Assembly (NCBI GenBank): GCA_015039465.1
Contig: MU130034.1
Location: forward strand, 1 to 64,000
Direction of reading: 5' to 3'
DNA from: Phlegmacium glaucopus
Taxonomy: Eukaryota; Basidiomycota; Agaricomycetes; Agaricales; Cortinariaceae
DNA: 64,000 nt
A program made the translations under genes and the position numbers. The notes under the pieces were generated by a model, which was given only the letters and a program-made list of their open reading frames with translations, made no database searches and was not told the origin of the DNA. This document shows, in pieces, positions 13,681-48,626 of this stretch (positions within the stretch are counted from its first letter, which is position 1; every line of letters starts with the position of its first letter).

Positions 13681-13899
13681 CTTAATAGTAAATATTTATA
13701 ACTTAAATTTCATTATCAGTCAGAGTTATTAAATGTTATTTATTTCAACTAATATCATTTATTTCATTGATATAAATAGTATTGAAATACAAAAATAAAA
13801 TTTGCTGGTGTCATGGTTGTAGGCTATAAAAAATACAAAACAAAAAACCCCACTGGCAGGTGAGGTGTTGTGGCCATCATCATCATTATAGCCTACAAA

Positions 13900-14710: not shown

Positions 14711-14739
14711 GTAAAAACTTAGTAGTGAAATTAAAAAAA

Positions 14740-15110
14740 TTAAAAAAACAAACCCACCCCCCTAGCAAAGGGGGTAGAGCTGTCGTTGTGTGGTGACATG
14801 GTGACATGGTGACGTGGCAGGTGGTGGTGGGTTGTTGTGGGGTTCATTGTTGTTAGCCGCTGTTGTTGTTTGTCTTGGTCACTTGAAGCTAGTAAGTAAA
14901 AGATTCATATAGTGAAATAAAAATAATAATAAAAATAAAATAAAAACCACCCCTCTAGCAAGGGGGGTAGAGCCATCGTCGTGGTTGCTAGTCATCATGG
15001 TAATTCATGGCCATCACTGGAAGCTAATAACTGGGGTTAGTATAGTGAAATAAAAACATATAAAAAAAAACATACCACCTCTCTAGTAAGGGGGGTAGAG
15101 CTGTCGTCAT
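14740..15110. repeat. Three direct ~150-bp units with a GGGGGTAGAGC box
   Basis: Units near 14750, 14940 and 15070 share an A-rich stretch, CTCTAGCAAGGGGGGTAGAGC and then a GTCGTCGT-like stretch. This is interior of the KDZ-like element. Confidence 0.65.
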
Positions 15111-15574
15111 CATCCAGCATCATCCAGCATCATTGGTATCCCCATCATCCATCATTCTTGTGCTCATTTGTCCTTGTTGTTGTTTGCAGTTGTGATATGG
15201 CAGTGTAGTGGTGGTGGTGGTTGTAAAGGTGGTGGGTGGTGATGGTGTGATGGTGTGAGATGATGAGTTGTTTGTAGTTGATTTGTGAGATGTCACACAT
15301 GGTCACATGACCACCTTGCAGCTTAAACAAAATATATTATTGTGATGGTAGACATTGCCAGCTTGAATGTATAACTTAAGCATTGTTATATAATTTTAAT
15401 TATTTTAATAATAAGATTTGTTTCTGTGTTACTTTGGAACTGTGGATTGTGATGGGATCAGAGTTGGAGTCCACTTGGAATTGAGTTGGAATTCCCAATT
15501 TGGACTCGGAGTCCGAGTGGATTCTGAGTAATTTACCTGGAATCCACTTGGACTCTGAGTGGATTCTGAGTGGA

Positions 15575-16147
15575 TGTTAAGTTTGGGAACTCTATTCCGG
15601 AGTATTGGATGGAGTTTGATCAGAATGGAACCACAGAATGGAAAAGGACTCTAGCCTCAGCATATGTGCTGTGCTACCCTAAACCTTCGTGTCCTAATTT
15701 TGGAGTAAGAACAGAATGGAGTGGAACTGGAAGTTGTGGGAACTTAGAGGAAGAATAGGAGGAGGAAACTAGGTTGATATTCAAACTGAGGAAAACATAC
15801 AAGTGTTGAGTACTTAAATAATAAAAGGAATTGCAACTGAAATATAAAGGATAAATATAAAGTGCTGCATTCTGCTCCTGGAAGGTCCTGCATTCTTGGG
15901 TGAATAATCCATAGTGGGTGTGCTGACTGATAGTGGGGGAGCAATGACAAAGAAATAGTGCTTGTGGCAAAGATGTGGTATTGGGTTTGGAGTATTGTTG
16001 GAGGAGCCGGAATGATACAGAGAAGTCTCAGAGTTGGATGTAGGAGGAGTAGAACCAGAAACAAGGGAAAGTACTGGAATGGAGTATGGACTACCAGAGA
16101 CAACTCTGACGGAGCTGGACCGGGGTAACATATAACAGAATGTAACA
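15575..16147 (-). mobile_element. Solo LTR inserted in the KDZ-like element
   Basis: Starts TGTTAAGTTTGGGAAC and ends GAATGTAACA, aligning end to end with the solo LTR at 10017-10587. It has a perfect 5-bp target duplication, GTGGA (15570-15574 and 16148-16152). It splits the subterminal GGANTCC array of the KDZ-like element and is therefore younger than it. Confidence 0.93.
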
Positions 16148-16301
16148 GTGGAATACATTCTGACCAAAGTCACAAAATTGAGGGGGTTACCTGCCAGAAA
16201 ATATTCTGCTTGAAGTCCGAGTTTGCTCCTCAGAATGCTTGGAATCCACTTGGATTCCATTCGGATTCCGAGCGGAAACTGTGGGGCACTGTAAAGACCT
16301 C

Positions 16302-28687: not shown

Positions 28688-29035
28688 TTACACACTTTTA
28701 TCATCATCATCGGATACCAGTATATATTCCTGAGCTGCTTCCTCTTCTTTGGGGACCTCACTTCCACGAGATGATGCTGAGCGTGAGCATTTACGCTTTG
28801 GCTTATTATTGGCTAGAATATTAGCAATCTCTATGAATATGGCCTCCCAGTGGTCCTTCATGAGGGCTTTCACCGTGGGCATGTACTGAGTTGTGTGACA
28901 GACAAGGACATTGATGGTCCTACCCTTGTCTGATCTTCGTTCAGTGCGATCACTGTAGTTGTCAGCTGAGAAGTGATTGGCGCTGTATCTAGGTTCAATG
29001 TACTCTCCAGTTGTCCAGGCCTTTAAGGCATGCTG
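28688..29035 (-). pseudogene. Gene X, 3' exon (separated from its 5' part by the inversion)
   Basis: The minus strand is open from the KDZ junction (29035) to the stop at 28688. It encodes HALKAWTTGEYIEPRYS, TINVLVCHTTQYMPTVKAL and an acidic tail ending DDDDKSV. The first bases continue exactly from the truncated exon at 42505-42507 (GTC then CAGCAT), which gives VQHALKAW. This is a multicopy transposon-associated family of Agaricomycetes with no known function. Confidence 0.7.
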
Positions 29036-29043
29036 GACCTGAT
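29036..29043. repeat. 8-bp KDZ target duplicate GACCTGAT
   Basis: Its partner is not at the right end of this KDZ copy. It is at 42500-42507 as the reverse complement ATCAGGTC. Confidence 0.85.
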
Positions 29044-29440
29044 GAGGTCTTTACAGTGCCCCATGGTTTCCGCTCGGATTCCATGCATTCCGAGGAGGCT
29101 CCTCGGACTCTGAGCAGCATATTTTCTGGCAGGTAACCTACCCAAATTTGTGACTTTGCTCGGAATATATTCCACTCGGAATCCACTCAGACTCCGAGTC
29201 TGAATTGAGAATTCCACCTCAATTCCACTTGGAATCCACTTGGAATCCGAATGGACTCCACTTGGACTCCACTTGGATTCCACTCAGAATCCGAATGGAA
29301 TCCGAATAGAGTCCACTTGGATTCCACTCAGAATCTGAATGGAATCTGAATGCACTCCACTTGGATTCTGAGTGGAATCCAAGTGGAGTCCATTTGGAAT
29401 TGAGTTGGATTCCACTCAGAAACAGTATTATTTACCAATT

Positions 29441-29516
29441 AAAAAAAAGTGCACTCATTGGGAATTGAACCAGCATCACTGCAACAATAAAGCCTGGCAC
29501 TTAAACACCTGAGCCA
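29441..29516 (-). other. tRNA-like Pol III promoter in KDZ copy 1
   Basis: Minus strand: A-box TGGCTCAGGTG (29516-29506), B-box GTTCAATTC (29470-29462) and a run of eight T (29448-29441). Same as 46065-46140. Confidence 0.6.
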
Positions 29517-29672
29517 TACCAGCAATTTGTAGGGCTTAAAACTTAGTAAATATATTCACATGTGGGAACTATGTCCTAAAGCGTCCAAACCCTTTGCCCT
29601 GTCTGCGTCACAACCTGTCACAACCCATTGTCCTGCGTTGCAACCCATTCCTCTCCTCTATTTCCCTCCATC

Positions 29673-32547
29673 ATGCCCGTCACCACACGCCACCAATCCC
29701 ACCCCAACCTGAACAAGGTCGATGATCCGAAGAGCAGCAGCAACGACGCTGCTTCGACCGTTGGCAACCGGCGCAAGCACCAAGAATCGAACGCGGACGT
29801 GGTCGATGCCCCCAAAAGGCATAAAAAACAGACGAAAAAGGGGAACGGCAGGTACACCCCATCCCATCTCATTTCCTGTACCGATTACTCACACTATGGA
29901 CAGGAAAACCGCCCTCAAGAGGGCAGCAGAGGACATTACGTCCTCTGCTTCAGGTGTACCACCCCACCTCACCCCGTAAGTCCTTTTAAATCATATTCAT
30001 GGTGTATTTAGTTTGCTAACAATTCTACAGGGCCAAACACACGCTCGTAGTGAGTGGCATCTCTGTTGCCCCACCCAAGCGTGCACATTCTCTACTTGTA
30101 ACGACACCTATCCCCACCATTGTCCCCAGACGCCAACATCGATCTGACAGTGGATATCACAGCCCTACTTTGCTTTTCTGGATTCTGGCACTGCTTATGC
30201 TCATAAAACGATCATCATCTGGAATAATGTCTTGCTTAATTCTACTTGCCTGTATGCCTCTGGTCACTGCAGCTCCTACTCAGAATGAATTCCCAGATAT
30301 CACATTCAAAGTCTTCAATGACTTTGTAGCAATAAACTTTAGTTCTAAAGTGTCACTGGCAACGGTTCTACTGGTGCTGTTTTCACTAACAGATAATCCT
30401 GATCTTCTGAACCTGCATGCTCGGCAACAACATCCATCTTGCTCTGGAGAGAAGAAAAGTGCCTCATCTGGATGGATTAAAAGTCTGGCATGAACTCTAC
30501 AGTCACATTTAGAGCATGAGACTTTGGATTTATTTAAAAAGTCTGAAAAGCCTAAAGACATTGAAGATAATGATATTGTTACTTCTCTTGCATTGAAACT
30601 TGGTGCCTTTGCTCAGATCTTGAACTTAAATCCATATCACAAAAATGGGAAATTTGACAAGAAATTGCTTCCTGTTTCTCATAAAGCTATCCAGCCAGTC
30701 TTGGTAATCTGCCCTACCTCTTTGACTTGTGAAGATACAAGATGTGAACCACGTGGACTACTGCAAAATACAAGAGTTAGAGATATTCCCAGTGTAACCC
30801 TTATTAAGGGCATAACAATCTACCAAAATGTCCCAGTGCTGACTGGGGTATGTACAACCTGCAACACAACTTATTCAGCAGATCATGAACGCATTCCTGG
30901 AAACAATGATCTTGCTACCAAAGTCTATCTGAACTCTGCTACACATTTGAAAGTGTGACAAAGTCTTTGGGTAGATAGAATCTTTTCAAGTGCTGTTATA
31001 AAAGCCATGCAAAGCTTTCATGCCTCTGCTGCAGCCTATACTGAATTCTGGAACAATAGTTTTTGAGAAAGTGGCACAGAATCATCTACTATCATTACTA
31101 GGCGACAAGTTTGGAATGCATTTGTCCAGGAGTCTACAAGAACAATAGCTGCAGTATCTGGAGTACATCTAGAACTAAAGGATAACCTGGACATAAATCA
31201 AATTACAGAACAGGCTTTTGTTAAACTTGGTGATCAGGGTCGTATTAAGCCAGCTGATGGACATGCATGTTCAGACTGTTCCCAGCCATACAAAAGAACT
31301 TCAGATACTCTTCCACAACAAAATCCTACTGCACACAATGATCCTGCTGGAATTGTTGGTGAGGATGACAACAGAGTTGTTCCTCCACTTATAAGCAATC
31401 ATAACACCTTATTGGCTCAGAATGTTCCTGAGGTATCAGCTACACTTCACAGAAACTCAGCATCAGATCATATGGAAGTAGATGGTAGAACTGTAAACAT
31501 GGTTGTACTTGATGGTATTGTAATGGGCACAACAGTAAGTATTAAGTTGATATTATCTTTTCTCAGAATTGAATTTATTTCTAGCATTGTGCATATGAAA
31601 ACTGCATTGAGGATCTGGATAATGCATGTGGAGGTGTATTTTGTACTCTTCATGAGCATGAATATGGACCACGTTGTTGTGTGAAAGGGTGCCAAAATAA
31701 CAAAGTGGCACCAACCCAAGCATGCTCTCAACACAAAATGCAATGGGACAAACACACTCATCACCATAGCCATTCAAGTCTTACAGGTGTTCGACGTATG
31801 TTACAAAGACCTGGTGAAAATCTGCCATGGAATCCTGCAACCAGAGGAAATGTACAACCACATGATGAAAATGCCCCAGAACCACTTCGAAGCCACTACT
31901 TTAGTCCTCCCCGTTTTTATTGTGTGGAAACAATCTGTGCACCCTGTGGTGCAGTTATTGCTTGGGCCAAATTTGCAAAATCTGAATCACCAACAAATAT
32001 CTTGAACTTCTTGGACAAGGTGTATCCCACAGAGGAGTCTCGGCCTGACTATATATGCATTGACAAGGCTTGTCTTGTGCTCAGAACTGCTATCAGCAAT
32101 GGATCTTGGAATGAGTGGCAGAAAACTAGTCGCTTCATTGTTGATGCATACCATTATATCAATCATCGCACAAATGATTTTCTTTGCCGGAAGTTTTGTA
32201 ACCCTGGGCCATTAGATGGCTCTGCCCCTAATCTTGTTGTTATGGCCTTGGACAGAAAAAATAAGCCTTATTTGAAACGGGCATTCAATACTCAGGTATG
32301 TTTATTTCTATTATGAGTTTATATTAATTAATTGTGGCTTATTTAGGCATGTGAACAATTGAATGCATGGCTGGGTGGCTTTGACTCTATTCTGAAACGC
32401 ATGACACCAGGCAACTTTAATTGGTTTTTGCATACAATGCTCTTTTACCACACTCAATATGTTCTTGAGAGACAAAGACAGAAGAAGTGGAAAAAGGAGA
32501 AGAAGGATCAGGAGGGAGATGACTCTGACACAGAGAATGAAGATTGA
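29673..32547 (+). pseudogene. CxC5/CxC6-KDZ transposase, copy 1 (nonsense mutations)
   Basis: A multi-exon gene starting MPVTTRHQSH at 29673. A middle exon from ~30524 carries the CxC5-type cluster (SLTCEDTRCEPRG, GVCTTCNTTYSADHERI) and the CxC6-type cluster (CAYENC, CCVKGCQNNKVAPTQACSQH). The KDZ DDE-fold domain runs from ~31900 (FYCVETICAPCGAVIAWAKF, RPDYICIDKACLV, FIVDAYHYINHR, KRAFNTQACEQLNAWLGGF, RMTPGNFNWFLHT) to an acidic tail and stop at 32545-32547. In-frame TGA codons at 30956-30958 and 31064-31066, where copy 2 has GGA, break the protein. KDZ enzymes are cut-and-paste transposases common in Agaricomycetes. Confidence 0.88.
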
Positions 32548-33012
32548 GTTATAGGTATGATATTGTACTATAAAGTAGACCATTGTAACAGAGCCAAATA
32601 TTCCTTGAAATGTTTATAAGATGTTACTGAGATTCCACTCAGACTCCACTTGGAATCCACTGAGAGTCCACTCAGACTCCATTTGGAATCCACTTGGAAT
32701 CCACTTGGAATCCACTGAGAGTCCGCTCAGACTCCATTCGGAATCCACTCGGAATCCACTCGGAATCCACTAAGAGTCCACTCAGACTCTATTTGGAATC
32801 CACTCAAGACTCTACTCGGACTCCACTTGGACTCTGTTCAGAATCTACTTAGTGACTTGGACTCCAAGCAGAGTCCAAGTGGAGTCCGAGTGGACTCCAT
32901 TTGGAATCCATGATTCCACTCGGACTCCACTTGGAATCCACTGGGAATCCAGTCGGAATGCTCGGACTCCACTCGGATTCCGTTCGGAAGCGTGGGGCAC
33001 TGTAAAGTACTG

Positions 33013-33020
33013 GAGATTAC
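33013..33020. repeat. 8-bp KDZ target duplicate GAGATTAC
   Basis: Its partner is at 46538-46545 as the reverse complement GTAATCTC, beside copy 2. Confidence 0.85.
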
Positions 33021-33893
33021 GGCAAAATTTTCGAAACTTGGCACTCTGTTCGTGGTCTTTCTCGGCTAAATAGCAGAAGTTAAGTCAGTTCTTGATACTA
33101 GTAGGAGTACTCCGGCTGGAGTACTTACTTTTTGGGATCGCCAGAAAGGCTAAAAGTGTAACCGCGTTTCAATGAGCATGCTGAACATTGTTATGCACGA
33201 GTCCATTGGATATATATACAGGGGTGATATTCGTTGTTGACAGTGCCAACTGAGACTGTGGTCTTGTTGCTTCCGAGAACTGTAGGACAAAAAGTTGAAC
33301 CATGGTTTGTGGGGTTGTTCGCTATCTCATCCTAGTTCAAAAGTATTTAATCGCTAGATAGGTGAATATTTGTCATATATGTTACATACCGCTTGTCACC
33401 ATGACCAATTTCCAGACATAAAATCTGAATACCTTCGCTTGTCATCCTTATCGCATACGTCCTTTGGTGCAAATTCCATTTCACCAGCATACTCTCAGTT
33501 TCCTAACTGGTTGTGCAGGACAAGCCGAGGATCACGATACCAGATTTCAAAAGGTTTATGCTTCCATGTGGCCGTCTCGCCTTCTTGGATTTCACCATTG
33601 TACGTGACCGTGAAGGAGTTCCAAGGTACATCTCCAAGGTCAAGATTATCAATGGTGTTATACAATTCATTCTTGCTCGCAAAATGGGGATCTTGATCCT
33701 CAGAAAGAGTGGATGCCCAGATCTGAAGAAGATCGTTGATGTGGGTGCTGGACATCTGGTCTCGTTGGAAGAGAAGGTCTGCAAGCTCAAACGCTGCAGA
33801 ATTGTTGAAAGTAGCAAAGTTGTTGTCAGGGTGTTCTTCCCAAGGTGGAGGTGGTGTGCCTGCAGGCAGAAAATTGCCTTGCGCATCACACGG
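33021..33893 (-). pseudogene. Plavaka transposase, middle part (inverted segment)
   Basis: Minus-strand exons give PCDAQGNFLPAGTPPPPWEE (33893-33830), then the conserved block at 33755-33495 (ASTLSEDQDPHFASKNELY, LGDVPWNSFTVTYNGE, EIWYRDPRLVLHN), then EMEFAPKDV and RRYSDFM (~33480-33410). It ends at the KDZ junction within FRKFCRNLF (~33060-33013). The next residues (NLFHGSINQIL) are found in frame at 46538 onward. This is one of three pieces of one gene, with 40265-40584 and 46538-48626. Confidence 0.85.
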
Positions 33894-34828
33894 TGATACA
33901 CTGTCAGTACGCTAGGTGCTGTACTAACTGAGGTGTGATGCGGCTCGGGGCTTCGGTGGCCTAAACACTGAGTCAAGTATATGCAGAAAGGTTCCAACTA
34001 AGGTAGGGCGACGAGATATGAGACGGGCGAAACGAGTGGCGACGCAGTGACGAAGGGGAGATGCAGTGACGAAGGGGAGACGCAGTGACGAAGGGGAGAC
34101 GCAGTGACGAAGGGGAGATGCAGTGACGAAGGGGAGATGCAGTGACGAAGGGGCGATGCAGTGACGAAGTATAGTCGCTGTATGGGCGACTCGCAGTAAA
34201 ACACAATGAAACGAAGGCGAACGAGGAGAGAGACGATGACAAGACTTAATTCAATACTCTGGGGAGAGAGGCAAATACTTTCTTATTGTGCTGTAACTAA
34301 GTTACATGGGTTTTTTATAGTAGAGGTGATTAGAATAAATGGGGGAAATGAAGCACAAGGTGTGTGGAGTAAATAGCATCAAAAAGCATAAGGAGTTAAG
34401 TGAGAAAATACAAAAAGTCGCACCATAAGATAAAAGGAGCATGGAGAAGATCTGGTAGCTAGGTAACAGTAAAATGATGCGAACATGATTTTGGCACGGT
34501 GAGGGGATGCATAAAAGTAGGAATGATAGGAAATCAAAAGAAGCGAAGTGATGCGCAGCATGGGCGACTTTTAGGAAAATGGGTAATGATGAAGATGGTG
34601 AACAGGGTGGAAAGGGCAATGTAGCAACAAGAGGGGTGATGTAGGACTGAAAGGTGTGACATAGTGACAAGGGCAATGTGGCAATGAGAGGGGCGATATG
34701 GCGACTAGAGGGGCGACATGGCGACTAGAGGGGCGACGTAGCGATGAGAGGGGCGACGTAGCGACTAGAGGGGCGACATAGCGATCAAAAGGGCAATTCC
34801 AGTTGGTAGAGCATAGCCATGTTCATCA
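33894..34828 (-). repeat. 3' LTR (in gag orientation) with internal minisatellites
   Basis: Matches 39333-40256. It contains an array of 19-bp GACGAAGGGGAGACGCAGT units (~34030-34170) and a 20-bp GGGGCGACATGGCGACTAGA array (~34680-34790), whose copy numbers differ from the other LTR. Confidence 0.92.
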
Positions 34829-34842
34829 TCGTCCTCCCTACT
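34829..34842 (-). promoter_or_regulatory. Polypurine tract
   Basis: Minus strand AGTAGGGAGGACGA directly abuts the 3' LTR. A near copy of this segment occurs internally at ~35436-35475. Confidence 0.65.
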
Positions 34843-35525
34843 GAAATACTGACTGTCCTCAGTCATTTGGCAAGTCCAGTGATGAGCGCTATGTTGGTCT
34901 TGGTTTCTTGATAATGTAACAGTTTGGAATGAAAAGAAAAGGTGAAGTTGTATATGTTACTATAGAAGTGATGTGAAGGATTTGGACTGAGAAGCGACTA
35001 GAATTATCAAAAAGGAGTGGTAGGAATGAAGAATATAAGATGGGAAAGGTGATAGACTGTGTCTTGATTTGAATGTAAGCACAAGTACTTGGCAAGGAAA
35101 TGAAGGAAGGAGCTCAATAAAATTTGTAAAGGTGAAATGATATGCTATATTGGTGGCCGAAGCGACCAGAGCACTTGTGGGTGCGCATGAGGGCGACTTG
35201 GAGCAAAAATAAGCGAAAGTTGTGGGCGAGCTTTGGTGGAAATATAGGAATATGGCGACAAATGGAGGCTAACGCTTAGCTTGCTTTGTAGTTGAAATTG
35301 CGCCATGTTTGAGAAGTTATATGACTTGAATCAAAGTGTGTGACCGAAAATGGACTGAGCAAACAGATAAATAGGAATTGAAAAGGAGGAGCATAAAGCA
35401 GTGTGGAAAAGCGAAAATATTTGGCTGATGTCGGCTCTTCTCCTCCCTACTGTAATATTGACTGTCCTGAGTCATCATCCAGTGGGTTGGCGTTATTGGT
35501 GTCTTCTTTCTGATCAAGGAAAGAG

Positions 35526-38500
35526 CTAGCATGTGATAGAGGGAGCTGAGTCGCTCTGGAGGAGTTCTTGATATGAGGCAACCTTGTGTCGCTTGAAGGA
35601 GTGGTGATGAAGGTCATATGTATAAATGCAATGAAAAGCGAAAATGGGCAGGAATAACCAGGGGATCGCTATGTCGGCTTGAAGTTGGTGAAAAAGGGAG
35701 CTAATAGGCGATTTGATGGCAAAGATTTGATAGGCCTGAGAGTCAGGGGAGCGGTGGGGAAGACTATAGGTGAAAATGCGATTAAAAGCGAAATGGAGCA
35801 GGAATAACCAAGAAATTGCCATGTCGGCTTGACGTCGGTGGGAAAGGGAGCTAATAGGCGATTTGATGGCAAAGATTGGATAGAAAAGATTTTGAGAGTC
35901 AAGGGATCGGTGGGAAAGACTATAGGTGAAAATCCAACAAAAAGCGAAAAGGAGCAGAAATATCCAAGAAATCATTAAGTCGGCTTGAAGTGGGTGTAAA
36001 AGCGCAAAAATAGGCGACCTAAAGGCAAAGATTAGAGGGGCTTGGGTGTTGAAGGAGCAGTGATGAGGACTATAGGTGAAAAGGTGATAGAAAGTGAAAA
36101 GAAGTAGAAATGGCCAGGAAATCGCTAAGTTGGCTCGACACCGATGGAAGTAGGAGCAAATAGGCAACATAGAGGCAAATATTGCATAGTCTTGGGAGTT
36201 GAAAGAGCAGTGATGACAACAGTAGGTAAGAATGCGATGAAAGGCAAAAAGGAGTAGGAATAACCAAGAAATTGCCACGTCGGCTTGAAGTCGGTGGGAA
36301 AGGGAGCTAATAGGCGATTTGATGGCGAAGATTGGATAGAAAATATTTTGAGAGTCAAGGGAGTGGCAGGATTTGCATATAATACTCATTTTGCCAATTA
36401 CTGATGAAATGGATAATGCTGGCGATGTAGCATGATGCTGAAGCGAAATATGAGGTAGACTGCTGCATATAATCATCAGGTTCCCCATTATTAGTCGAAG
36501 CGCTGACCAGAGGACTAGGAGCATGATATTACTGCAAGAGCGATGTTGGGTGAATATAGTGGCATTATTGAGCGCTTTATGATTCTGGGACATCGCATAC
36601 ATGAGGAAAGGAGCAGAGGTATATGTAAGAGGAGATATAGATGAGAGATTGAGGGAGCGATGATTTTCCAAGGTTGTAGCCTGAATTGAGCTATAGGGCG
36701 ACGCAATTAGTAATTTGATCGCAGTTGATGGGGTTGGGGCGCTTGTAAGTGCAGATAATGGTATTGCAGCGCTTTTAGATGCAGAAGCTGCAGCAACATT
36801 AGAGGACAATGAGCAAGGGTCAGGATGGCGCAGAGGAGGGGATTTGGAAAGGGGGAGGGATTTGCAAGCTGAGAGATGAGAGAGCAAAATACAGTCTGGG
36901 TCAGAGGAGCATAAGGTAGTTGTTGGCTTAGCAACACCTAATATATCAGAATCAGATGTCTTGCTTGATCGGAGCAATTGATGGCAACATTCAATGTAGC
37001 TAGAAACACCAGTGGGGCGCTCCTGAGGTGTGCAATAGGGCACTTTTTGGACAGAAACTGTAGGGAGTGTAGGAGGGTCGCCTTTATCTGTGTTATTGAT
37101 GTGGAGAGCGCTTTGAGCAGCAGAGGTTGTATTTTCAAGAATGCGATGTGGGGAGACTTCTTGAACCTGTGCAGGCACCTTAGGAGCAAGGGACATTAAT
37201 CCTCTTGGTGTGACAGCGATAGGAGCTTCCATTGATCGCTTATAGGTTTTGACTTCGCTAGTGGATCCATGAATATGGGGAAGTGTCTTGTGTGTCGCAT
37301 GTGGTCTATTCTTACACACAGGTGCCTCAAAGGGTGCTCCAATGATCCGTAGTCCAGGAGGAGCATAAGCGGCAGATTTAGCGCATTGATGAGTGTATTT
37401 GGGCATAGTAAGCGGCTGGAAGTTCGGAATACTTGCAGTGGCGACTATATTGGTAGGAGACTGTGTCTGAACCTTCGCTTCTGGGATAGGGCGGTATACA
37501 TGAGGAGGAGCGATTGTTTCTTCCATGCTCTCCCAGGTAGCAGAGTCCTTCGCCTTTTGTGTTCTAGTGCGACTAGGGGCGACAAAATTGGTGTTCTGGG
37601 AGCGGAGATGCGAGAGCTCGGCTTCTATAGTTGCTATGCGGTCTGTTACGGAGAGCTGATAGGAGGAATGAGTACTTCTGATGGGAGTATGATGAAATCG
37701 CTCTGGTCTGATGGTGTACATCATGGTTGCTGTGCCAAGGTGATTTGGGTTGCGATGATGCCATCCATCAATGCGCTCTCGGAGTAAATTGCCGGGGATG
37801 TCTCTGGGAATGAAAGCGCCAGAGGGGAGCACTATTTTGCCGTCTCTACTGCGTTTACACTTTCCAGCTCTGATGTAGTCGCTGACAAGGTCACAATTGC
37901 GAATGAAGTGCGGTTTTCCACAAAAATGGCAGTTGGCATCATAGGCGATGGAGGAGGGAGATGATGTGTTACTAGGGTGACTGTGGTCGCCATGGTTGAG
38001 CGCTTCAACAATGCTCTTAGATAATTCTGCAAAGAGCATTTCTATGCTTTCAATTTTGATAGGAGGGTCGGCTGATGGGAGTGAAGGGGAGCTAAAGGTG
38101 TCCAGAGTCGCTGGGGGAAGGGGAGAATAGTAGCTCTGTGTCGCAGTAGAAGAGCTTTGCAAGATATAGTGGGCGCACTCATAAACAGTTTGGATTTTGT
38201 GAGGTATGTTCGGATGATGGTCTGGGAACTTCATCTGGAGACGATAGGCAATTGCAGATGAAAGCGCAGGCTGGAATGCCTGTAAATAGCAGCGCTTCTG
38301 CTCTAAATCTCCAAGTTGCTGCTTCTCAATGAGCCATGAGGTGATCGCAAGAAAATTCAAATGATAATCGGATAAATCATTGATGGTTGTAATTCCAAGT
38401 CGCTGGCGCTCTCCAATCAAAGTATCCATGTCGCGAAGGGAATAGACATAGTCGCCACATGCATCAGGATAATGGACTAAGATAGCCGCTTTGAATTGGT

Positions 38501-38732
38501 TGTAGGTTTTAGTGGGGTCGGAGTACTCTGGGAATGTTTTCCAGATTTGCTCTATCTCAAAGTCGACATAGCGGAGGACTTGTTTCTTTTTGTCAAGCTC
38601 TGTGACAAGCGCAGCGCGGTCGAGGAGATACTCAAGCTCATCAAAGAACCTGTTGAGCTCTCGTGGTTTGTTTCTGTCAAAGGTGGGAGCAGAGCGCTCA
38701 CCACGGGCAGGCATGCAGAAAAAAGTCGCCAT
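35526..38732 (-). CDS. Gag-like protein fused to five hydrophobic ~50-residue repeats
   Basis: An open frame of 1068 codons. Residues ~20-250 are a gag-type region (RELNRFFDELEYLLDRA, EIEQIWKTFPEYSDP). They are followed by a knuckle variant CX2CX3HX4C (CHFCGKPHFIRNC, ~290) and a block seen in basidiomycete gag proteins (GKIVLPSGAFIPRDIPG). The middle is Ser/Thr/Pro-rich. The C-terminal ~260 residues (35590-36365) are about five tandem repeats, each containing FAIKSPISSL and a strongly hydrophobic AISWLFLLLFAFHRIFTY-like stretch that could span a membrane. No enzyme domain is present. Whether the repeat part is selected as protein or is a minisatellite that happens to be open is unclear. Confidence 0.72.
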   Translation of the reverse strand: MATFFCMPARGERSAPTFDRNKPRELNRFFDELEYLLDRAALVTELDKKKQVLRYVDFEIEQIWKTFPEYSDPTKTYNQFKAAILVHYPDACGDYVYSLRDMDTLIGERQRLGITTINDLSDYHLNFLAITSWLIEKQQLGDLEQKRCYLQAFQPALSSAIAYRLQMKFPDHHPNIPHKIQTVYECAHYILQSSSTATQSYYSPLPPATLDTFSSPSLPSADPPIKIESIEMLFAELSKSIVEALNHGDHSHPSNTSSPSSIAYDANCHFCGKPHFIRNCDLVSDYIRAGKCKRSRDGKIVLPSGAFIPRDIPGNLLRERIDGWHHRNPNHLGTATMMYTIRPERFHHTPIRSTHSSYQLSVTDRIATIEAELSHLRSQNTNFVAPSRTRTQKAKDSATWESMEETIAPPHVYRPIPEAKVQTQSPTNIVATASIPNFQPLTMPKYTHQCAKSAAYAPPGLRIIGAPFEAPVCKNRPHATHKTLPHIHGSTSEVKTYKRSMEAPIAVTPRGLMSLAPKVPAQVQEVSPHRILENTTSAAQSALHINNTDKGDPPTLPTVSVQKVPYCTPQERPTGVSSYIECCHQLLRSSKTSDSDILGVAKPTTTLCSSDPDCILLSHLSACKSLPLSKSPPLRHPDPCSLSSNVAAASASKSAAIPLSALTSAPTPSTAIKLLIASPYSSIQATTLENHRSLNLSSISPLTYTSAPFLMYAMSQNHKALNNATIFTQHRSCSNIMLLVLWSALRLIMGNLMIICSSLPHISLQHHATSPALSISSVIGKMSIICKSCHSLDSQNIFYPIFAIKSPISSLSHRLQADVAISWLFLLLFAFHRILTYCCHHCSFNSQDYAIFASMLPICSYFHRCRANLAISWPFLLLFTFYHLFTYSPHHCSFNTQAPLIFAFRSPIFALLHPLQADLMISWIFLLLFAFCWIFTYSLSHRSLDSQNLFYPIFAIKSPISSLSHRRQADMAISWLFLLHFAFNRIFTYSLPHRSPDSQAYQIFAIKSPISSLFHQLQADIAIPWLFLPIFAFHCIYTYDLHHHSFKRHKVASYQELLQSDSAPSITC
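35590..36365. repeat. ~150-bp tandem repeat within the gag-fusion ORF
   Basis: About five imperfect units with the core GTCGGCTTGAAGT..GGGAAAGGGAGCTAATAGGCGATTTGATGGC. They keep the reading frame. Confidence 0.85.
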
Positions 38733-39311
38733 AGGTAGTTGTGTAGGTTGAATAGGTTTTGTTGTGAAGAAAGGGTAGGACCGATTAAAGCGAAATCAGT
38801 AGGAGACAATGAAAGGTTGGTTGGCGAAGTGTTATCAGATGAAGAGGATGGGAGATCTGGAGGTAGAAGGCTGGCAACAAAAATGGGAGAAAGGTGACAA
38901 AATGGAAGGGGGGCGACGAAATGGAGGAAAGGCGATGAGATGAGGCTTTTGTGGCGCTGTTTCTCTGAAGGGAGCTCTATGAAGAGCAAAGGCGATGAAA
39001 TGGAAGGAAGGGTAGGACCAATGAAAGCGAAATCTGTAAAGGACTTGGAGGAGACAATGGAAGGTTTGTTGGTGAAGTGCTATAAGACGAAGAGGGAGAT
39101 CACTAGGTAGAAATAGAGGCGATGAGATGGGAGGGAGATTGTTGTGTCGTTGTCGGTCTGGAGGCAGCTCTATAAAAAGTGATTCGTCCTCTAGATTGAG
39201 TGGGTTCTGGAAGGTAGTGACAAGCTCTTCTCTAAGAGTTGTTGGAGGTAATTCTGCTACCGATGGCGATCGGTTGACTTGTCTGGTAGAAGGTGCAATT
39301 GTAATAGAAAC

Positions 39312-39329
39312 CCCTCGCGGTGGGCTCCA
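39312..39329 (-). promoter_or_regulatory. tRNA primer binding site
   Basis: Minus strand TGGAGCCCACCGCGAGGG starts 3 nt inside the 5' LTR. The TGG start and position are those of a retrotransposon primer site pairing with a tRNA 3' end (CCA). The tRNA species was not identified. Confidence 0.75.
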
Positions 39330-39332
39330 AAA

Positions 39333-40256
39333 TGATACACTGTCAGTACGCTAGGTGCTGTACTAACTGAGGTGTGATGCGGCTCGGGGCTTCGGTGGCC
39401 TAAACACTGAGTCAAGTATATGCAGAAAGGTTCCAACTAAGGTAGGGCGACGAGATATGAGACGAGCGAAACGAGGAGCAATGTAATGACGAAAGGGCGA
39501 CGAAGGAACGAAGTGGCGACGCAGTGACGAAGGGGAGATGCAGTGACGAAGGGGAGACGCAGTGACGAAGGGGAGACGCAGTGACGAAGGGGACGCGCAG
39601 TAAAACGCAATGAAACGAAGGCGAACGATGAGAGAGACGATGACAAGACTTAATTCTATACTCTGGGGAGAGAGGCGAATACTTTCTTATTGTTCTGTAA
39701 CTAAGTTACATGGGTTTTTTATAGTAGAGGTGATTAGAATAAATGGGGAAATGAAGCACAAGGTGTGTGGAGTAAATAGCATCAAAAAGCATAAGGAGTT
39801 AAGTGAGAAAATACAAAAAGTCGCACCATAAGATAAAAGGAGCATGGAGAATAACTGGTAGCTAGGTAACAGTAAAATGATGCGAACATGATTTTGGCAC
39901 GGTGAGGGGATGCATAAAAGTAGGAATGATAGGAAATCAAAAGAAGCGAAGTGATGCGCAGCATGGGCGACTTTTAGGAAAATGGGTAATGATGAAGATG
40001 GTGAACAGGGTGGAAAGGGCAATGTAGCAACAAGAGGGGTGATGTAGGACTGAAAGGTGTGACATAGTGACAAGGGCAATGTGGGCAATGGGACTAGAGG
40101 GGCGACATGGCGACTAGAGGGGCGACATGGCGACTAGAGGGGCGACATGGCGACTAGAGGGGCGACGTAGCGATGAGAGGGGCGACGTAGCGACTAGAGG
40201 GGCAACATGGCAACAAAAGGGCAATTCCAGTTGGTAGAGCATAGCCATGTTCATCA
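39333..40256 (-). repeat. 5' LTR (in gag orientation)
   Basis: 924 bp; matches 33894-34828 apart from repeat copy number. Confidence 0.93.
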
Positions 40257-40264
40257 ACGGTAGC

Positions 40265-40584
40265 CCTAAATAGTATGCTCAGTATTTATTTCTTTTAACG
40301 AGAAAAACATGAGGTGGCGCACCATTAATGAATGGATGGTCAGTAATCTTCTCTTTAGCTGCTTTTTCAGGATTCACAGGATGATCCTGAGCATCGTCTT
40401 CAAGATCTACTGGAATGTTGTCTTCATATTCGTTGACTGGTGGTTGATGTGCTGGCAGTTCACAATTCACCTGTGGCTTACGATGCATTCGGATATGATT
40501 TTTTAGGCCACCTTGATTTGTAAATTGTCGAGTACAAGATTTGATGGGGCAAGGAATGTATCGAACTTTAAAAGAACGGGGCAT
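40265..40584 (-). pseudogene. Plavaka transposase, N-terminal exons (inverted segment)
   Basis: The minus-strand ATG at 40584 opens a C2H2 zinc finger with CX4CX12HX3H spacing (CPIKSCTRQF..HIRMH), typical of the N-terminus of Plavaka transposases. An acidic linker follows, up to the splice donor after HPFING (40323). The next exon begins at 40265 (GLPCDAQG when read across the LTR element). The gene then runs into the LTR insertion at 40257. Confidence 0.85.
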
Positions 40585-40790
40585 GGTAGATGTAGGGTAA
40601 AATTACCACTGTGAGCACCTATTTGTTGACGGATGCAAATGAGGACGGGTGCAAAGCGAGCTATTGAGTGAACAAACACACCTTATTGACCATAATGCTA
40701 CCCAGTAAAAATCTCCTCCCTCCACCGTTTGCTCCTACTCAACCTTCTACTTGCACGAAGAACAGAGATGCTCAACCAGGTGCTATCGAC

Positions 40791-42507
40791 ATGCCCAAAC
40801 CACGCAGAACAGCTGCAGAGATGCAGGCCATCCGGGATCAGCAGGCATCTGATAAGCAGGAAAAAAAGTGAAAGCAAGAGGAAGCATTGAAAAATGCCGC
40901 TGATATTGAAGATGAACAGCGCCAAGAGGACGTTCGACGTGCCGCCCAATCAAATTTCCGCAAGCCACAGGTTGCGGTTTTTCATCCACCCACCCCTGTG
41001 GAGCCTGTTGATACTGAAAATCCAGCTCAGCATATGTCTATGTACACTTCTTGAGAAATAACTCTCACCAATTGATTTCCAGTTCGAGCAACCAGAAGCT
41101 TGGACGTGATCTTGCCCAATGGCATAGAGTCTGATGACAGTGATAAAGATAGGTACTGACCAGAGGACACAGATGATATGCAATCGGAGGGCAGCAACAA
41201 AGATGAGTTTGCAAGTGAAGAAGAAGTTGTGTCCAAAAAAGGAAAAAAAAGAAACTAGGACGCCATGAGATCACAGCTGTCAGAGTCACCGTTCCCACAA
41301 CGGGATCTAAATCTGCAGCTCAATACTCAAAGCGTGACTGGAGCCCAAGGTCAGTTCAATTATTGTGTCTATATTATCTGGGCTAACTGTCATCCATGGA
41401 ATCCAAAGTGTTTCGCTGTCTCAGACTGTCCAAGCCAAGAAACTGAAAAGGTCAAACCAGATGACCTCAGGCCTTCGTTCTGGCTGGGACTCCATGGATA
41501 AAACAAAACCCAGTGCACCAGCTGCAAAATCCCATCAGGAGGATAATGACTCGCTAGTGCGGTATGGAGGTATGGTTAGTGATGATAGTGACGATGAGGA
41601 GCGGTCAGCCATCATGAGTGACAAAGGGCCCAAACGGAGTCCAAATAATTATGTGCGTGCTTTTATTTGACATCTAAGCAATGAGCTCATATACAAATTC
41701 AGTCATCATCTCTAAAGATAGAAGTAAAGTTGTCTGTCCCCCGCACACAACGAGAAGCCTGGGGTGGGAGCGGGAAAAAATGGAGACTCGAACACCGTCC
41801 AAAAAATACATCGGATGCATTTACCAATCAGCTAGTCCCTCTTGCGAAGAGTCTTGCTGGATCTCTCTCTCTCTGGGAGGGTTTTTCCAGGAAGCAAGTC
41901 CAGGAGCTTGTTGACAAGGTCTATGGGCCTGCACAGTACACCATTCAGAATCCCCCAATCGACCCATGGGCTCCTCTTGTGAGTCTTTTTACTCCTCAAA
42001 ATCTCTTGGATGATGCTAATAAAACATCCCAACATTCAGATCAGCTATTGCTTGAACAATTGGCACAACGGATTTGGTACAAAGGCTGCTGAAGTGCTGA
42101 GGAGATACATTGAGGTTGATCAAGCGGAATTCTTCAAAAATCCTAAGGTTATTGCTGACTGGGTTCAATTTTCACTTGCGCCGGACGGAAATCCACCAAC
42201 CTATCCTTTCCTCTGGAAGGAGTGGAAGATCAACAATGAAACTGGAAAGGTTACAAAAAAGGTATGACTGTCAGCTATCATACTTGACCATTTACTGAGT
42301 GATATGTAGGGACGACTGCAAAATCCATTAGTTTTATACACGCTGGCACTTGCCCACTTTGCGGAATGGGAAGATGTACCGGACCTGGAGCACCTCAGCG
42401 AGAAGGAGAAGCCTCATGGAGCGTTTATTCTTTCTCTTCAAGCAGTGAGTCGTCGCTCCTTGCTCATTTCTCATTTCTCATTTCTCAATCCTTGTTTGTA
42501 TCAGGTC
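40791..42507 (+). pseudogene. Gene X, 5' part (transposon-associated, unknown function)
   Basis: The ATG at 40791 starts MPKPRRTAAEMQAIRDQQAS, a highly charged N-terminus. An in-frame TGA follows KQEKK at ~40869, and another occurs after MYTS near 41050; both sit where CGA is plausible. Later exons give EERSAIMSDKGPKRSPNN (~41640), PKNTSDAFTNQLVPLAKSL and SRKQVQELVDKVYGPAQYT (41785-41945), then ISYCLNNWHNGFGTKAAEVL (~42045), VIADWVQFSLAPDG and LAHFAEWEDVPDLEHL to 42444. The last exon starts at 42505 (GTC) and is cut by KDZ copy 2. It continues at 29035-28688. Confidence 0.7.
42500..42507. repeat. 8-bp KDZ target duplicate ATCAGGTC
   Basis: Reverse complement of 29036-29043; it straddles the splice acceptor of the last gene X exon. 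Confidence 0.85.
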
Positions 42508-42972
42508 CAGTACTTTACAGTGCCCCACGCTTCCGAACGGAATCCGAGTGGAGTCCGAGCATTCCGACTGGATTCCCAGTGGATTCCGAGTGGAGTCCGA
42601 GTGGAATCATGGATTCCAAATGGAGTCCACTCGGACTCCACTTGGACTCTGCTTGGAGTCCAAGTCACTAAGTAGATTCTGAACAGAGTCCAAGTGGAGT
42701 CCGAGTAGAGTCTTGAGTGGATTCCAAATAGAGTCTGAGTGGACTCTTAGTGGATTCCGAGTGGATTCCGAGTGGATTCCAAATGGAGTCTGAGCGGACT
42801 CTCAGTGGATTCCAAGTGGATTCCAAGTGGATTCCAAATGGAGTCTGAGTGGACTCTCAGTGGATTCCAAGTGGAGTCTGAGTGGAATCTCAGTAACATC
42901 TTATAAACATTTCAAGGAATATTTGGCTCTGTTACAATGGTCTACTTTATAGTACAATATCATACCTATAAC

Positions 42973-45908
42973 TCAATCTTCATTCTCTGTGTCAGAGTCA
43001 TCTCCCTCCTGATCCTTCTTCTCCTTTTTCCACTTCTTCTGTCTTTGTCTCTCAAGAACATATTGAGTGTGGTAAAAGAGCATTGTATGCAAAAACCAAT
43101 TAAAGTTGCCTGGTGTCATGCGTTTCAGAATAGAGTCAAAGCCACCCAGCCATGCATTCAATTGTTCACATGCCTAAATAAGCCACAATTAATTAATATA
43201 AACTCATAATAGAAATAAACATACCTGAGTATTGAATGCCCGTTTCAAATAAGGCTTATTTTTTCTGTCCAAGGCCATAACAACAAGATTAGGGGCAGAG
43301 ACATCTAATGGCCCAGGGTTACAAAACTTCTGGCAAAGAAAATCATTTGTGCGATGATTGATATAATGGTATGCATCAACAATGAAGCGACTAGTTTTCT
43401 GCCACTCATTCCAAGATCCATTGCTGATAGCAGTCCTGAGCACAAGACAAGCCTTGTCAATGCATATATAGTCAGGCCGAGACTCCTCTGTGGGATACAC
43501 CTTGTCCAAGAAGTTCAAGATATTTGTTGGTGATTCAGATTTTGCAAATTTGGCCCAAGCAATAACTGCACCACAGGGTGCACAGATTGTTTATAAAAAT
43601 GGCCAGAAAAATTATGGCTTAAAGTGGATCGGGGATTGCATCATGTGGTTGTACATTTCTATAATGAGTTCATGGCAATTAATTGTGCTTCGAAGTAGTT
43701 ATGTGGGCATTTTCATCATGTGGTTGTACATTTCCTCTGGTTGCAGGATTCCATGGCAGATTTTCACCAGGTCTTTGTAACATACGTCGAACACCTGTAA
43801 GACTTGAATGGCTATGGTGATGAGTGTGTTTGTCCCATTGCATTTTGTGTTGAGAGCATGCTTGGGTTGGTGCCACTTTGTTATTTTGGCACCCTTTCAC
43901 ACGACAATGTGGTCCATATTCATGCTCATGAAGAGTACAAAATACACCTCCACATGCATTATCCAGATCCTCAATGCAGTTTTCATATGCACAATGCTAG
44001 AAATAAATTCAATTCTGAGAAAAGATAATATCAACTTAATACTTACTGTTGTGCCCATTACAATACCATCAAGTACAACCATGTTTACAGTTCTACCATC
44101 TACTTCCATATGATCTGATGCTGAGTTTCTGTGAAGTGTAGCTGATACCTCAGGAACATTCTGAGCCAATAAGGTGTTATGATTGCTTATAAGTGGAGGA
44201 ACAACTCTGTTGTCATCCTCACCAACAATTCCAGCAGGATCATTGTGTGCAGTAGGATTTTGTTGTGGAAGAGTATCTGAAGTTCTTTTGTATGGCTGGG
44301 TACATTCTGAACATGCATGTCCATCAGCTGGCTTAATACGACCCTGATCACCAAGTTTAACAAAAGCCTGTTCTGTAATTTGATTTATGTCCAGGTTATC
44401 CTTTAGTTCTAGATGTACTCCAGATACTGCAGCTATTGTTCTTGTAGACTCCTGGACAAATGCATTCCAAACTTGTCGCCTAGTAATGATAGTAGATGAT
44501 TCTGTGCCACTTTCTCCAAAACTATTGTTCCAGAATTCAGTATAGGCTGCAGCAGAGGCATGAAAGCTTTGCATGGCTTTTATAACAGCACTTGAAAAGA
44601 TTCTATCTACCCAAAGACTTTGTCCCACTTTCAAATGTGTAGCAGAGTTCAGATAGACTTTGGTAGCAAGATCATTGTTTCCAGGAATGCGTTCATGATC
44701 TGCTGAATAAGTTGTGTTGCAGGTTGTACATACCCCAGTCAGCACTGGGACATTTTGGTAGATTGTTATGCCCTTAATAAGGGTTACACTGGGAATATCT
44801 CTAACTCTTGTATTTTGCAGTAGTCCACGTGGTTCACATATTGTATCTTCACAAGTCAAAGAGGTAGGGCAGATTACCAAGACTGGCTGGATAGCTTTAT
44901 GAGAAACAGGAAGCAATTTCTTGTCAAATTTCCCATTTTTGTGATATGGATTTAAGTTCAAGATCTGAGCAAAGGCACCAAGTTTCAATGCAAGAGAAGT
45001 AACAATATCATTATCTTCAATGTCTTTAGGCTTTTCAGACTTTTTAAATAAATCCAAAGTCTCATGCTCTAAATGTGACTGTAGAGTTCATGCCAGACTT
45101 TTAATCCATCCAGATGAGGCACTTTTCTTCTCTCCAGAGCAAGATGGATGTTGTTGCCGAGCATGCAGGTTCAGAAGATCAGGATTATCTGTTAGTGAAA
45201 ACAGCACCAGTAGAACCGTTGCCAGTGACACTTTAGAACTAAAGTTTATTGCTACAAAGTCATTGAAGACTTTGAATGTGATATCTGGGAATTCATTCTG
45301 AGTAGGAGCTGCAGTGACCAGAGGCATACAGGCAAGTAGAATTAAGCAAGACATTATTCCAGATGATGATCGTTTTATGAGCATAAGCAGTGCCAGAATC
45401 CAGAAAAGCAAAGTAGGGCTGTGATATCCACTGTCAGATCGATGTTGGCGTCTGGGGACAATGGTGGGGATAGGTGTCGTTACAAGTAGAGAATGTGCAC
45501 GCTTGGGTGGGGCAACAGAGATGCCACTCACTACGAGCGTGTGTTTGGCCCTGTAGAATTGTTAGCAAACTAAATACACCATGAATATGATTTAAAAGGA
45601 CTTACGGGGTGAGGTGGGGTGGTACACCTGAAGCAGAGGACGTAATGTCCTCTGCTGCCCTCTTGAGGGCGGTTTTCCTGTCCATAGTGTGAGTAATCGG
45701 TACAGGAAATGAGATGGGATGGGGTGTACCTGCCGTTCCCCTTTTTCGTCTGTTTTTTATGCCTTTTGGGGGCATCGACCACGTCCGCGTTCGATTCTTG
45801 GTGCTTGCGCCGGTTGCCAACGGTCGAAGCAGCGTCGTTGCTGCTGCTCTTCGGATCATCGACCTTGTTCAGGTTGGGGTGGGATTGGTGGCGTGTGGTG
45901 ACGGGCAT
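42973..45908 (-). pseudogene. CxC5/CxC6-KDZ transposase, copy 2 (rearranged in the DDE domain)
   Basis: Same exon order as copy 1: ATG at 45908 and a 386-codon open exon (45057-43897) holding CxC5/CxC6, without the two TGA codons of copy 1. At 43585-43735 the start of the DDE-fold domain (block FYCVETICAPCG) is replaced by unrelated and locally duplicated sequence that breaks the frame. The rest of the domain (43518-42973) is intact. Few other differences are seen, so both copies came from a recent common source. Confidence 0.88.
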
Positions 45909-46064
45909 GATGGAGGGAAATAGAGGAGAGGAATGGGTTGCAACGCAGGACAATGGGTTGTGACAGGTTGTGACGCAGACAGGGCAAAGGGTTTGGACGC
46001 TTTAGGACATAGTTCCCACATGTGAATATATTTACTAAGTTTTAAGCCCTACAAATTGCTGGTA

Positions 46065-46140
46065 TGGCTCAGGTGTTAAAGTGCCAGGCTTTATTGTTGC
46101 AGTGATGCTGGTTCAATTCCCAATGAGTGCACTTTTTTTT
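46065..46140 (+). other. tRNA-like Pol III promoter in KDZ copy 2
   Basis: A-box TGGCTCAGGTG (46065-46075) and B-box GTTCAATTC (46111-46119) match the consensus TRGYNNANNNG and GWTCRANNC at every defined position. A run of eight T follows at 46133-46140. The acceptor and T stems do not pair well, so it is a tRNA-derived relic rather than a working tRNA gene. Confidence 0.6.
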
Positions 46141-46537
46141 AATTGGTAAATAATACTGTTTCTGAGTGGAATCCAACTCAATTCCAAATGGACTCCACTT
46201 GGATTCCACTCAGAATCCAAGTGGAGTGCATTCAGATTCCATTCAGATTCTGAGTGGAATCCAAGTGGACTCTATTCGGATTCCATTCGGATTCTGAGTG
46301 GAATCCAAGTGGAGTCCAAGTGGAGTCCATTCGGATTCCAAGTGGATTCCAAGTGGAATTGAGGTGGAATTCTCAATTCAGACTCGGAGTCTGAGTGGAT
46401 TCCGAGTGGAATATATTCCGAGCAAAGTCACAAATTTGGGTAGGTTACCTGCCAGAAAATATGCTGCTCAGAGTCCGAGGAGCCTCCTCGGAATGCATGG
46501 AATCCGAGCGGAAACCGTGGGGCACTGTAAAGACCTT

Positions 46538-46545
46538 GTAATCTC
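46538..46545. repeat. 8-bp KDZ target duplicate GTAATCTC
   Basis: Reverse complement of 33013-33020. Confidence 0.85.
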
Positions 46546-48626
46546 TTCCATGGTTCCATCAACCAAATTCTCCAACCTCTGCAGCAATATATGGAGACAC
46601 CTGATATTGTCCGTTATGGTGATGGATATTATTGACATACAATTTATGGAATTGGTCCATATATCGCAGATTATCCCGAGCAAGTTTTGTTGGCATGTGT
46701 TGTACAGGGTTGGTGCCCCAGGTGAGCAACAGTCTCGTCTTCTTGTCCACATCTCATATAATTTTTAGATGTGATGCTAAATGGGATAATCTCGATGACA
46801 ACATTGCTGGATGGCACTCCCACAAGTTAACATGTTCTCTCATTGAAGCTCTGGATAAGAAAAGTTTATGGGATGACTATGGGATTATTAGCGATATCAT
46901 GGTATTTATTCTTGATTAGCCCGCTTGTTCCTGCCCTTACTATGTATTTTCCAGCCATTTACCTATGGCTTTCCTTGGGCCAACATTCATGAGCTGTTGT
47001 CGCTGGACCTTCTCCACCAGATCATCAAAGGCACCTTCAAAGATCACCTGGTAATGTGGGTGACTGCCTACATCAATCTCGAACACCCTCCAGCTGAGGC
47101 CAAATTGATTCTCACTGACATTGACCGGCGGTATGTACTCTTGCAAGTTGAATTTTTTAAATTATGACACATCCAATACTTTTAGCATTGCTGCAGCACC
47201 CTCATTCCCTGGCCTTCATCGCTTTCCGGAGGGTCGTGAATTCAAACAGTGGACAGGGGATGACTCAAAAGCACTCATGAAGGTGTGTAATACTTTTGCT
47301 GGTTGTTTTTTTTTTTTCAATTGTTCTGACTTGTCAAACGGCTCAAACCAGGTATATCTTCCTGCCATTGCAGGCCATGTTCCTCCACAAATGGTCTGTG
47401 CTGTAAGCTCCTTTATGGAGTTTTGCTACCTCGTCTGGCATAACATCATCAACAAAGACAATATTTTGGCTATCAATAACGCCGTCGCCAAATTTCATGT
47501 CGAACGCAGCATTTTTGATGACATCCGCCCTGATGGGTATTCAGTCCCTCGTCAACACTCACTGGTTCATTATACATACCTTATTCAAGAATTTGGGGCA
47601 CCAAATGGTCTCTGTTCATCGATAACCAAATCAAAACATATCAAAGCAGTTAAAGAACCCTGGCGACGATCAAGTCACTACAAGGCTCTGGGCCAGATGC
47701 TTGTCACAAACCAACATTTGGACAAGCTAGCTGCTGCTCGAGTCAACTTCGAAGCATGTGGTATGCTTCATCGACAACCTGGACCACCAGAACTGCCACC
47801 TCCAGACCCACCTGCCAATAATCCAGAAGATGATGAGGATGATGATGGAAGTGCTGTTGATGGAGATATTGATAGTGAGGTGATTCTTGCACAATGTCCC
47901 AGTGAGTCTAGGATAATGTTGTGTCTTATCCATCATTTCTGATTACTATGTCCAGTTTGAAACCTTCCTCTCATAGTTGAAGCTCTTGGAGTGCATCTCA
48001 ATATACCTCACCTTCCAAACCTCGTTCGGCGCTTCCTCCATGAACAACTGGTACAAGTCAATGCAGACATTGAGCTTGATGATGTTCCGCTATTGGATTG
48101 TCCCATTCTTACCAATACAACTAAGATATGGGTTTTCCCCTCCGCGGTTGCCATTTACTATGCCCCAAGTGACCTGTCTGGTACAAGGGGGATGTTTTGT
48201 GAACATATTCAAGCGGTTGATTCCTGGCGTTGTGGTCCTGCGAGACATGATTGTGTTTTTGTTCAACATGACCCTGAGCAACCAGGTTTCTGTGGGCTAT
48301 ATGTTGCATGGGTGCGCCATTTCTTTTCCATTCGCCATAACAATGTCCGCTTCCCATGTGCATTGGTATCCTGGTATTCAACTATCGGTACCACACCATG
48401 TGCAGACACCGGAATGTGGAAGGTACAGCCCGATTTTGATAATATGGGTAATTTGGCTATGTCTATCATCCATCTCGACAGCATGGTGCGCGGTGCGCAT
48501 CTCATGGGTGTGGCAGGTACCACCCAAATTCCTTACCACCTCACTTTTGACCGTAGCCTTGATGCTTTCCGAGCATTTTATGTAAATAAATACGTAGACC
48601 ACCATGCACATGAATATGCCTTTTGA
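46538..48626 (+). pseudogene. Plavaka transposase, C-terminal two thirds
   Basis: Starting at the KDZ junction, exons give RNLFHGSINQILQPLQQYM, DIVRYGDGYY, then HTIYGIGPYIADYPEQVLL and VVQGWCPR (46635-46720). They continue with AKWDNLDDNIAGWHSH, YGFPWANIHELLSLDLLHQ and KGTFKDHLVMWV (46955-47145), then PSFPGLHRFPEGREFKQWTGDD. Further on are HVPPQMVCAVSSFMEFCYL, PRQHSLVHYTYLIQEFGAPNG and KEPWRRSSHYKALGQML (47350-47700), and a C-terminal domain ending at a stop near 48626. This is the standard Plavaka transposase order. The part is open apart from introns; the gene is dead because its 5' portion lies inverted 6 kb or more away. Confidence 0.88.

Follow-up and report, generated by a model that had tools for sequence, protein, structure and literature searches.

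A segment of 9479 bp in the window (the whole 64,000-nt stretch of Phlegmacium glaucopus DNA analysed here) is, with strong support from sequence comparison, inverted relative to its relatives in the same genome, and the inversion runs exactly between the insertion sites of two oppositely oriented copies of one KDZ-associated DNA transposon (Table 1). We draw this conclusion because the 8-bp target duplications of the two copies are crossed and because the segment, once turned back, is colinear with five unoccupied paralogous places. From crossed target duplications one can learn that an inversion took place but not by which mechanism, and the exact way in which the flip happened cannot be proved from one sequence; the route that we prefer, at a probability of roughly 0.6, is local transposition followed by homologous recombination between the inverted copies.

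Table 1. Features of the inverted locus, in window coordinates
Feature	Position	Strand	Basis and remarks
Target duplication A, outer half, GACCTGAT	29036..29043	+	left flank of copy 1; read directly and by script
Copy 1, CxC5/CxC6 (KDZ-associated) DNA transposon	29044..33012	+	3969 bp, internally deleted; family comparison, Pfam
Internal-deletion junction of copy 1 (approximate)	30150..30151	+	about 2.2 kb of copy C16 missing
Target duplication B, moved half, GAGATTAC	33013..33020	+	right flank of copy 1; read directly and by script
Inverted segment	33021..42499	-	9479 bp; part of a Plavaka transposon plus LTR-type insertion; opposite to outer flanks in comparison with paralogs
Plavaka transposase fragment	33495..33908	-	PF18759 profile positions 1-61, 55.4 bits; inside inverted segment
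LTR-type element	33894..40256	-	bounded by terminal repeats (about 33894-34828 and 39333-40256) and by matching ACGG/T flanks of its own
Target duplication A, moved half, ATCAGGTC (reverse complement of GACCTGAT)	42500..42507	-	left flank of copy 2
Copy 2, same transposon	42508..46537	-	4030 bp; same deletion junction at about 45431
Rearranged block of copy 2	43593..43704	-	112 nt where copy 1 has 51 nt; C16 and C13 like copy 1
Target duplication B, outer half, GTAATCTC	46538..46545	+	right flank of copy 2
Plavaka transposase continuation	46540..46722	+	profile positions 182-212 and 215-242; outside inverted segment

The boundaries of both copies were set by comparison with other copies of the family. 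Read in the orientation of the element, copy 1 is flanked by GACCTGAT and GAGATTAC and copy 2 by GAGATTAC and GACCTGAT: the 5' flank of either copy is identical, at 8/8 positions, to the 3' flank of the other, and the two flanks of each copy, re-measured by script, are mismatched at four of eight positions. By our own arithmetic, which assumes equal base frequencies, two such exact 8-mer matches would arise by chance at about 4^-16 = 2e-10. The unlike flanks of each copy and their crosswise pairing had already been described in an earlier note on this DNA, and we can bear them out, the flip interval (33021-42499) and the overall span (29036-46545) being exact on re-measurement; to say, as that note did, that they prove an inversion is too strong, although the duplications together with the paralogs, which add evidence that the note did not have, strongly support an inversion relative to the relatives.

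If the inverted segment is flipped back, one would expect both insertion sites to turn into continuous sequence, and we therefore queried the genome of origin with the two joined sites. Site A gave eight rows (the two window halves and six paralogs), and site B gave 18 (the two window halves, five near-full-length paralogs and 11 weaker partial matches). Five places, in C140, C200, C225 and twice in C120, contain site A and site B together, with order and strand agreeing and a distance of about 3.2 kb between them. The one that was read through, C140, follows window positions 28851-29043 (+), 42483-40259 (-), 33894-33014 (-) and 46538-46770 (+) colinearly, with each target single and unduplicated at its site (exact at A, 7/8 at B), and the 6.4-kb stretch that it does not have is the LTR-type element with its own matching flanks. 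Measured against this uninverted reference, which consists of paralogs and not of alleles, the breakpoints show neither loss nor gain. The near-full-length matches to the joined sites are paralogs of 80-87% identity, and the only identical sequence is that of the window's own half-matches; the uninverted sister haplotype that the earlier note proposed to look for did not emerge, as searching the assembly with joined sites A and B yielded paralogs only and no uninverted, doubly occupied allele. As a separate observation, two Plavaka copies at C120:1615-9552 (L064, L065) are inverted around a centre near 5.6 kb, and this pair and C225:320-3821, at a contig start, have equal match scores with the site A and B queries, an arrangement that is possibly a palindromic duplication or a haplotype end.

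The DNA that received both insertions is, by its transposase matches, a Plavaka transposon that the inversion has split. Part of the transposase lies inside the inverted segment and its continuation outside, the latter in two profile parts separated by one in-frame stop (182-212 at 24.2 bits, just below the curated cut-off of 26.3, and 215-242 at 44.5 bits). When the flip is undone, inner and outer parts form one Plavaka transposase frame that crosses junction B uninterrupted; the fragments scanned did not yield profile positions 62-181. The LTR-type element is a passenger within the inverted segment and contains a 1088-aa open frame at 35526-38795 (-), which had no Pfam match at E 0.1. Its terminal repeats show 32 differences at 849 aligned sites, many of them, in our reading of the alignment, in tandem repeats, and we rejected a dating of its insertion against that of the two copies as too noisy to give an order of events. 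Since the affected DNA is a transposon nest, an effect on the host is not apparent.

How insertions of this family normally look can be judged from the source genome (60.5 Mb in 259 contigs), in which the family was located and where its copy numbers are lower bounds. The survey of duplications covered 24 copies readable at both ends, the window pair included, and left aside the unpaired ends (15 on the 5' side and a similar number on the 3' side); for each copy the script took the best of three offsets. Own target duplications were found in 18 of the 24 copies, 15 of them exact and three with one mismatch. Among the 22 copies other than the window pair, 12 have exact 8-bp duplications, three have exact ones shifted by one base, three agree at 7/8 and four have none, namely C16, C203, the window copy at 12997-16301 and C105, whose pairing is uncertain, its two ends lying 10 kb apart. 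Ordinary insertion is thus the rule for the family, with own duplications in 18 of 22 other copies. Of the 24 copies with both ends, the window pair is the only crossed pair within one mismatch, and in a wider list that includes single ends no two other copies match each other exactly; the ends L036 and L021 agree by chance at 7/8. The length of the duplication may vary slightly, as flanks at L053 (C41) and L073/L032 (C246) match over nine bases and not eight. We also observed a family copy of about 1.8 kb (G000 C164:507683-509503, L023 / L031) that has two 3' ends facing outward and unlike flanks, with no 5' end found within 507683-509503; such a structure may have arisen by another kind of aberrant transposition or recombination.

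The copies had been labelled KDZ in the earlier note. We scanned a 657-aa read-through, with X at stops and introns, against Pfam up to E = 5, and found CxC5 (E 8.8e-27) and CxC6 (E 2.7e-10), both over their curated cut-offs, and no match to the KDZ catalytic domain. Two frames read in C16, from the stretch that is deleted in the window copies, have no Pfam match either, and of the longer family copies not every gene is readable. The best 120 of 710 relatives likewise have the same two Pfam domains only, and the organism-named relatives among those listed are agaric fungi (Infundibulicybe, Flammula, Galerina, Laccaria and Amanita). Pfam describes CxC5 and CxC6 as cysteine clusters associated with KDZ transposases. 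Because these two matched and the catalytic domain did not, the label is kept in a reduced form that leans on CxC5/CxC6: we call this a KDZ-associated CxC5/CxC6 element and do not claim full KDZ membership. Its 5' end is GAGGTCTTTACAGTGCCCC (AAGGTC in copy 2 and C235) and its 3' end GGGGCACTGTAAAGTACTG, with the short exact terminal repeat TTTACAGTGCCCC at both ends in inverse orientation. As the Kyakuja families described have 7-bp duplications and no terminal inverted repeats, 8 bp being the Zisupton/Dileera type in the passages of that source that treat duplications (PMC12730594), the 8-bp duplication fits the Zisupton/Dileera side better than the described Kyakuja families. KDZ1-KDZ3 of Cryptococcus neoformans are likewise fungal KDZ-type DNA transposons with terminal inverted repeats and a zinc-binding CxC domain, and their new insertions have 8-bp (KDZ1) or 4-8-bp (KDZ2/KDZ3) duplications, yet they carry a KDZ core with CxC1, measure about 9-11 kb and have terminal inverted repeats of 139-241 bp, according to the sections of the report that describe them (PMC12810828), whereas the window element has its short exact repeat, CxC5/CxC6 and no detected KDZ core.

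The two window copies are sisters, because they have in common a deletion junction that occurs nowhere else in the readable genome. The fully readable C16 has about 2.2 kb where the window copies have nothing, and in five further copies the similarity to copy 1 ends at the same base as the junction; a 101-bp query across it gave 11 matches in the readable genome, of which only those in the two window copies span the whole query, the other nine being one-sided. Copy 1 and copy 2 differ by 15 substitutions in about 3.9 kb and by one block (51 against 112 nt), and copy 1 has two in-frame stops that copy 2 does not have. Over the six outer 300-nt segments the two are 99.3-100% alike; no other copy in the set exceeds 97.8% there, and the closest of the rest is 2 to 6 per cent different. 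Over the seven middle segments this lead is small or absent, with other copies almost matching, equalling or surpassing the likeness between the two. In three of the 13 segments copy 2 is outside the four best matches for copy 1, and one of these holds the rearranged block. The low variation in the middle of the element may, on our reading, reflect coding constraint.

The block in copy 2 is partly a local duplication that repeats the adjacent upstream sequence and partly resembles diverged relatives, and it looks like a templated repair patch; searched in its own genome as a mark of crossover, it returned, apart from itself, two weakly similar stretches, of about 70 nt at 80%, in C219 and C14. 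Chimerism was examined by asking for the nearest relative of each 300-nt segment and by polarising the 15 substitutions with the help of 18 rows from other loci, of which many cannot be read at a given site. Compared with the other readable copies, copy 1 alone deviates at seven of the 15 sites and copy 2 alone at two, where one site in each group has only one other copy with a base, and at the remaining six the minor state is also present in another copy of the family. No chimerism that would mark a crossover was detectable in the two copies by either comparison. Because the two copies form one clade by their shared deletion, any model has to invoke parallel mutation or gene conversion for these shared states, which hence do not discriminate; chimerism, the usual discriminator, gives recombination no support here, the sister copies having source lineages that are indistinguishable.

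Under the preferred route, a Plavaka transposon, which had received its LTR-type insertion already or would do so later, would have been entered by an internally deleted CxC5/CxC6 transposon, and a sister copy would then have inserted nearby in the same Plavaka element and in opposite orientation. With each insertion an 8-bp target duplication of its own would have arisen; homologous crossing-over of the near-identical 4-kb copies, which lie inverted to each other, would then have flipped the 9479 bp between them and swapped one half per duplication. Here the local transposition step and the homologous crossover are what we infer. Inverted repeats of 4 kb that lie 9.5 kb apart are good substrates for recombination. 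It is for this reason that we prefer recombination, and also because most copies of the family are ordinary single insertions and because there is a precedent in a mushroom, Marasmius oreades, in which the authors explain deletions by nonallelic homologous recombination of transposon copies that lie close together, and in which one transposon-related inversion, of a different shape, is described (PMC9674265). A flip of this kind should be reversible, and both orientations may therefore exist among nuclei or strains. What speaks against the preferred route is that sister copies are also expected from transposition in a single step, and the plain attribution of the pattern to ectopic recombination, made previously, goes too far, since hybrid-element and replicative transposition give the same exchanged duplications.

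Such a single step, in which the transposase itself would have made the inversion, either by nearby insertion of a sister-chromatid hybrid element or by intramolecular replicative transposition, seems to us somewhat unlikely. It predicts that sister copies bracket the inverted segment in opposite orientation and that the duplication halves of each copy are one old and one new, and sister copies are indeed found (the deletion junction being common to these two alone, with 15 substitutions in about 3.9 kb); furthermore, it accounts for all of the observations, as the preferred route also does, and requires one event where the preferred route requires two. Nevertheless, hybrid-element events are rare in comparison with normal transposition in known systems, and no further crossed pair occurs among the 24 copies, which indicates that such events are infrequent in this family. 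The copies would also have been identical at birth and are now 15 substitutions and a rearranged block apart, a discrepancy that later mutation explains. Insertion of a hybrid element from sister chromatids likewise yields exchanged duplications, and its outcome is, in the discussion of alternatives in the Galileo study, strikingly similar to that of ectopic recombination, except that the copies are identical and not chimeric (PMC2775673); replicative transposition in trans also yields the same flank pattern (PMC7986276), but no replicative KDZ mechanism is described in the excerpts of the KDZ literature that were examined (PMC12730594, PMC12810828). It is unlikely that transposition of the KDZ-associated element inside its chromosome, whether replicative or through hybrid ends, produced the second copy together with the inversion; if true, a poorly understood transposon group would make inversions directly, without homologous recombination.

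Alternatively, the true chromosome might have normal duplications and the assembly might have placed the segment between the 4-kb copies backwards. Assemblies are well known to mis-orient a segment that lies between near-identical inverted repeats; such an error would leave exactly the observed pattern, and the sequence alone is compatible with it. We nonetheless consider such an error improbable, given that the 64-kb window is without N, that the 259 contigs for 60.5 Mb include one of 2.8 Mb (C144), which suggests long reads able to span 4 kb, and that copy 1 and copy 2 each show substitutions of their own and are set apart by an indel block, instead of having been collapsed into one consensus. 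As for the absence of any inversion, with independent insertions whose flanks match crosswise by chance or with eroded duplications, four of the 22 other copies without a matching duplication do indicate that erosion or deletion occurs, but the odds of about 2e-10 for two exact crosswise 8-mers leave it practically no probability, and it is refuted by the paralogs, against which the segment is backwards at five places with its breakpoints at the insertion sites.

The locus is a clean new example of a kind of rearrangement that is already known. The inversions 2j, 2q7 and 2z3 of Drosophila buzzatii were made by Galileo (PMC2775673), and 2z3, as the breakpoint descriptions in that study have it, is alike in that each of its breakpoints carries a copy of a single DNA transposon, the two being opposite in orientation and having their target duplications exchanged, and in that non-inverted chromosomes have single target copies; it differs in that the Galileo copies were shown to be chimeric and the non-inverted chromosomes were sequenced (PMC2775673), whereas the window has sister copies, an inversion of 9.5 kb inside a transposon nest and a comparison by paralogs rather than with an uninverted allele. 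The bacterial IS6/IS26 elements acting in trans, in the part of the review devoted to them, also give an inversion between an old and a new copy in opposite orientation, each with one old and one new flank and generally with 8-bp duplications (PMC7986276); in contrast to these, replicative transposition of the fungal element is hypothetical. In the titles and abstract openings of eight open-licence records on KDZ elements no KDZ-bounded inversion with exchanged duplications is reported. The present case is a very legible transposon-bounded inversion in a fungus, in which both insertion scars, a colinear reference and the split gene can all be read, and it involves a group of transposons whose transposition chemistry is little known.

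Two further repeats were seen in the left part of the window. The copy at 12997-16301 is related to the same element but shorter, and its flanks are unlike each other; it holds a 20-bp tandem repeat as well as a near-perfect palindrome of 179 nt (13324-13682), and at the left window end positions 1-3916 contain a direct repeat with a spacing of about 3.1 kb, 94-96% alike.
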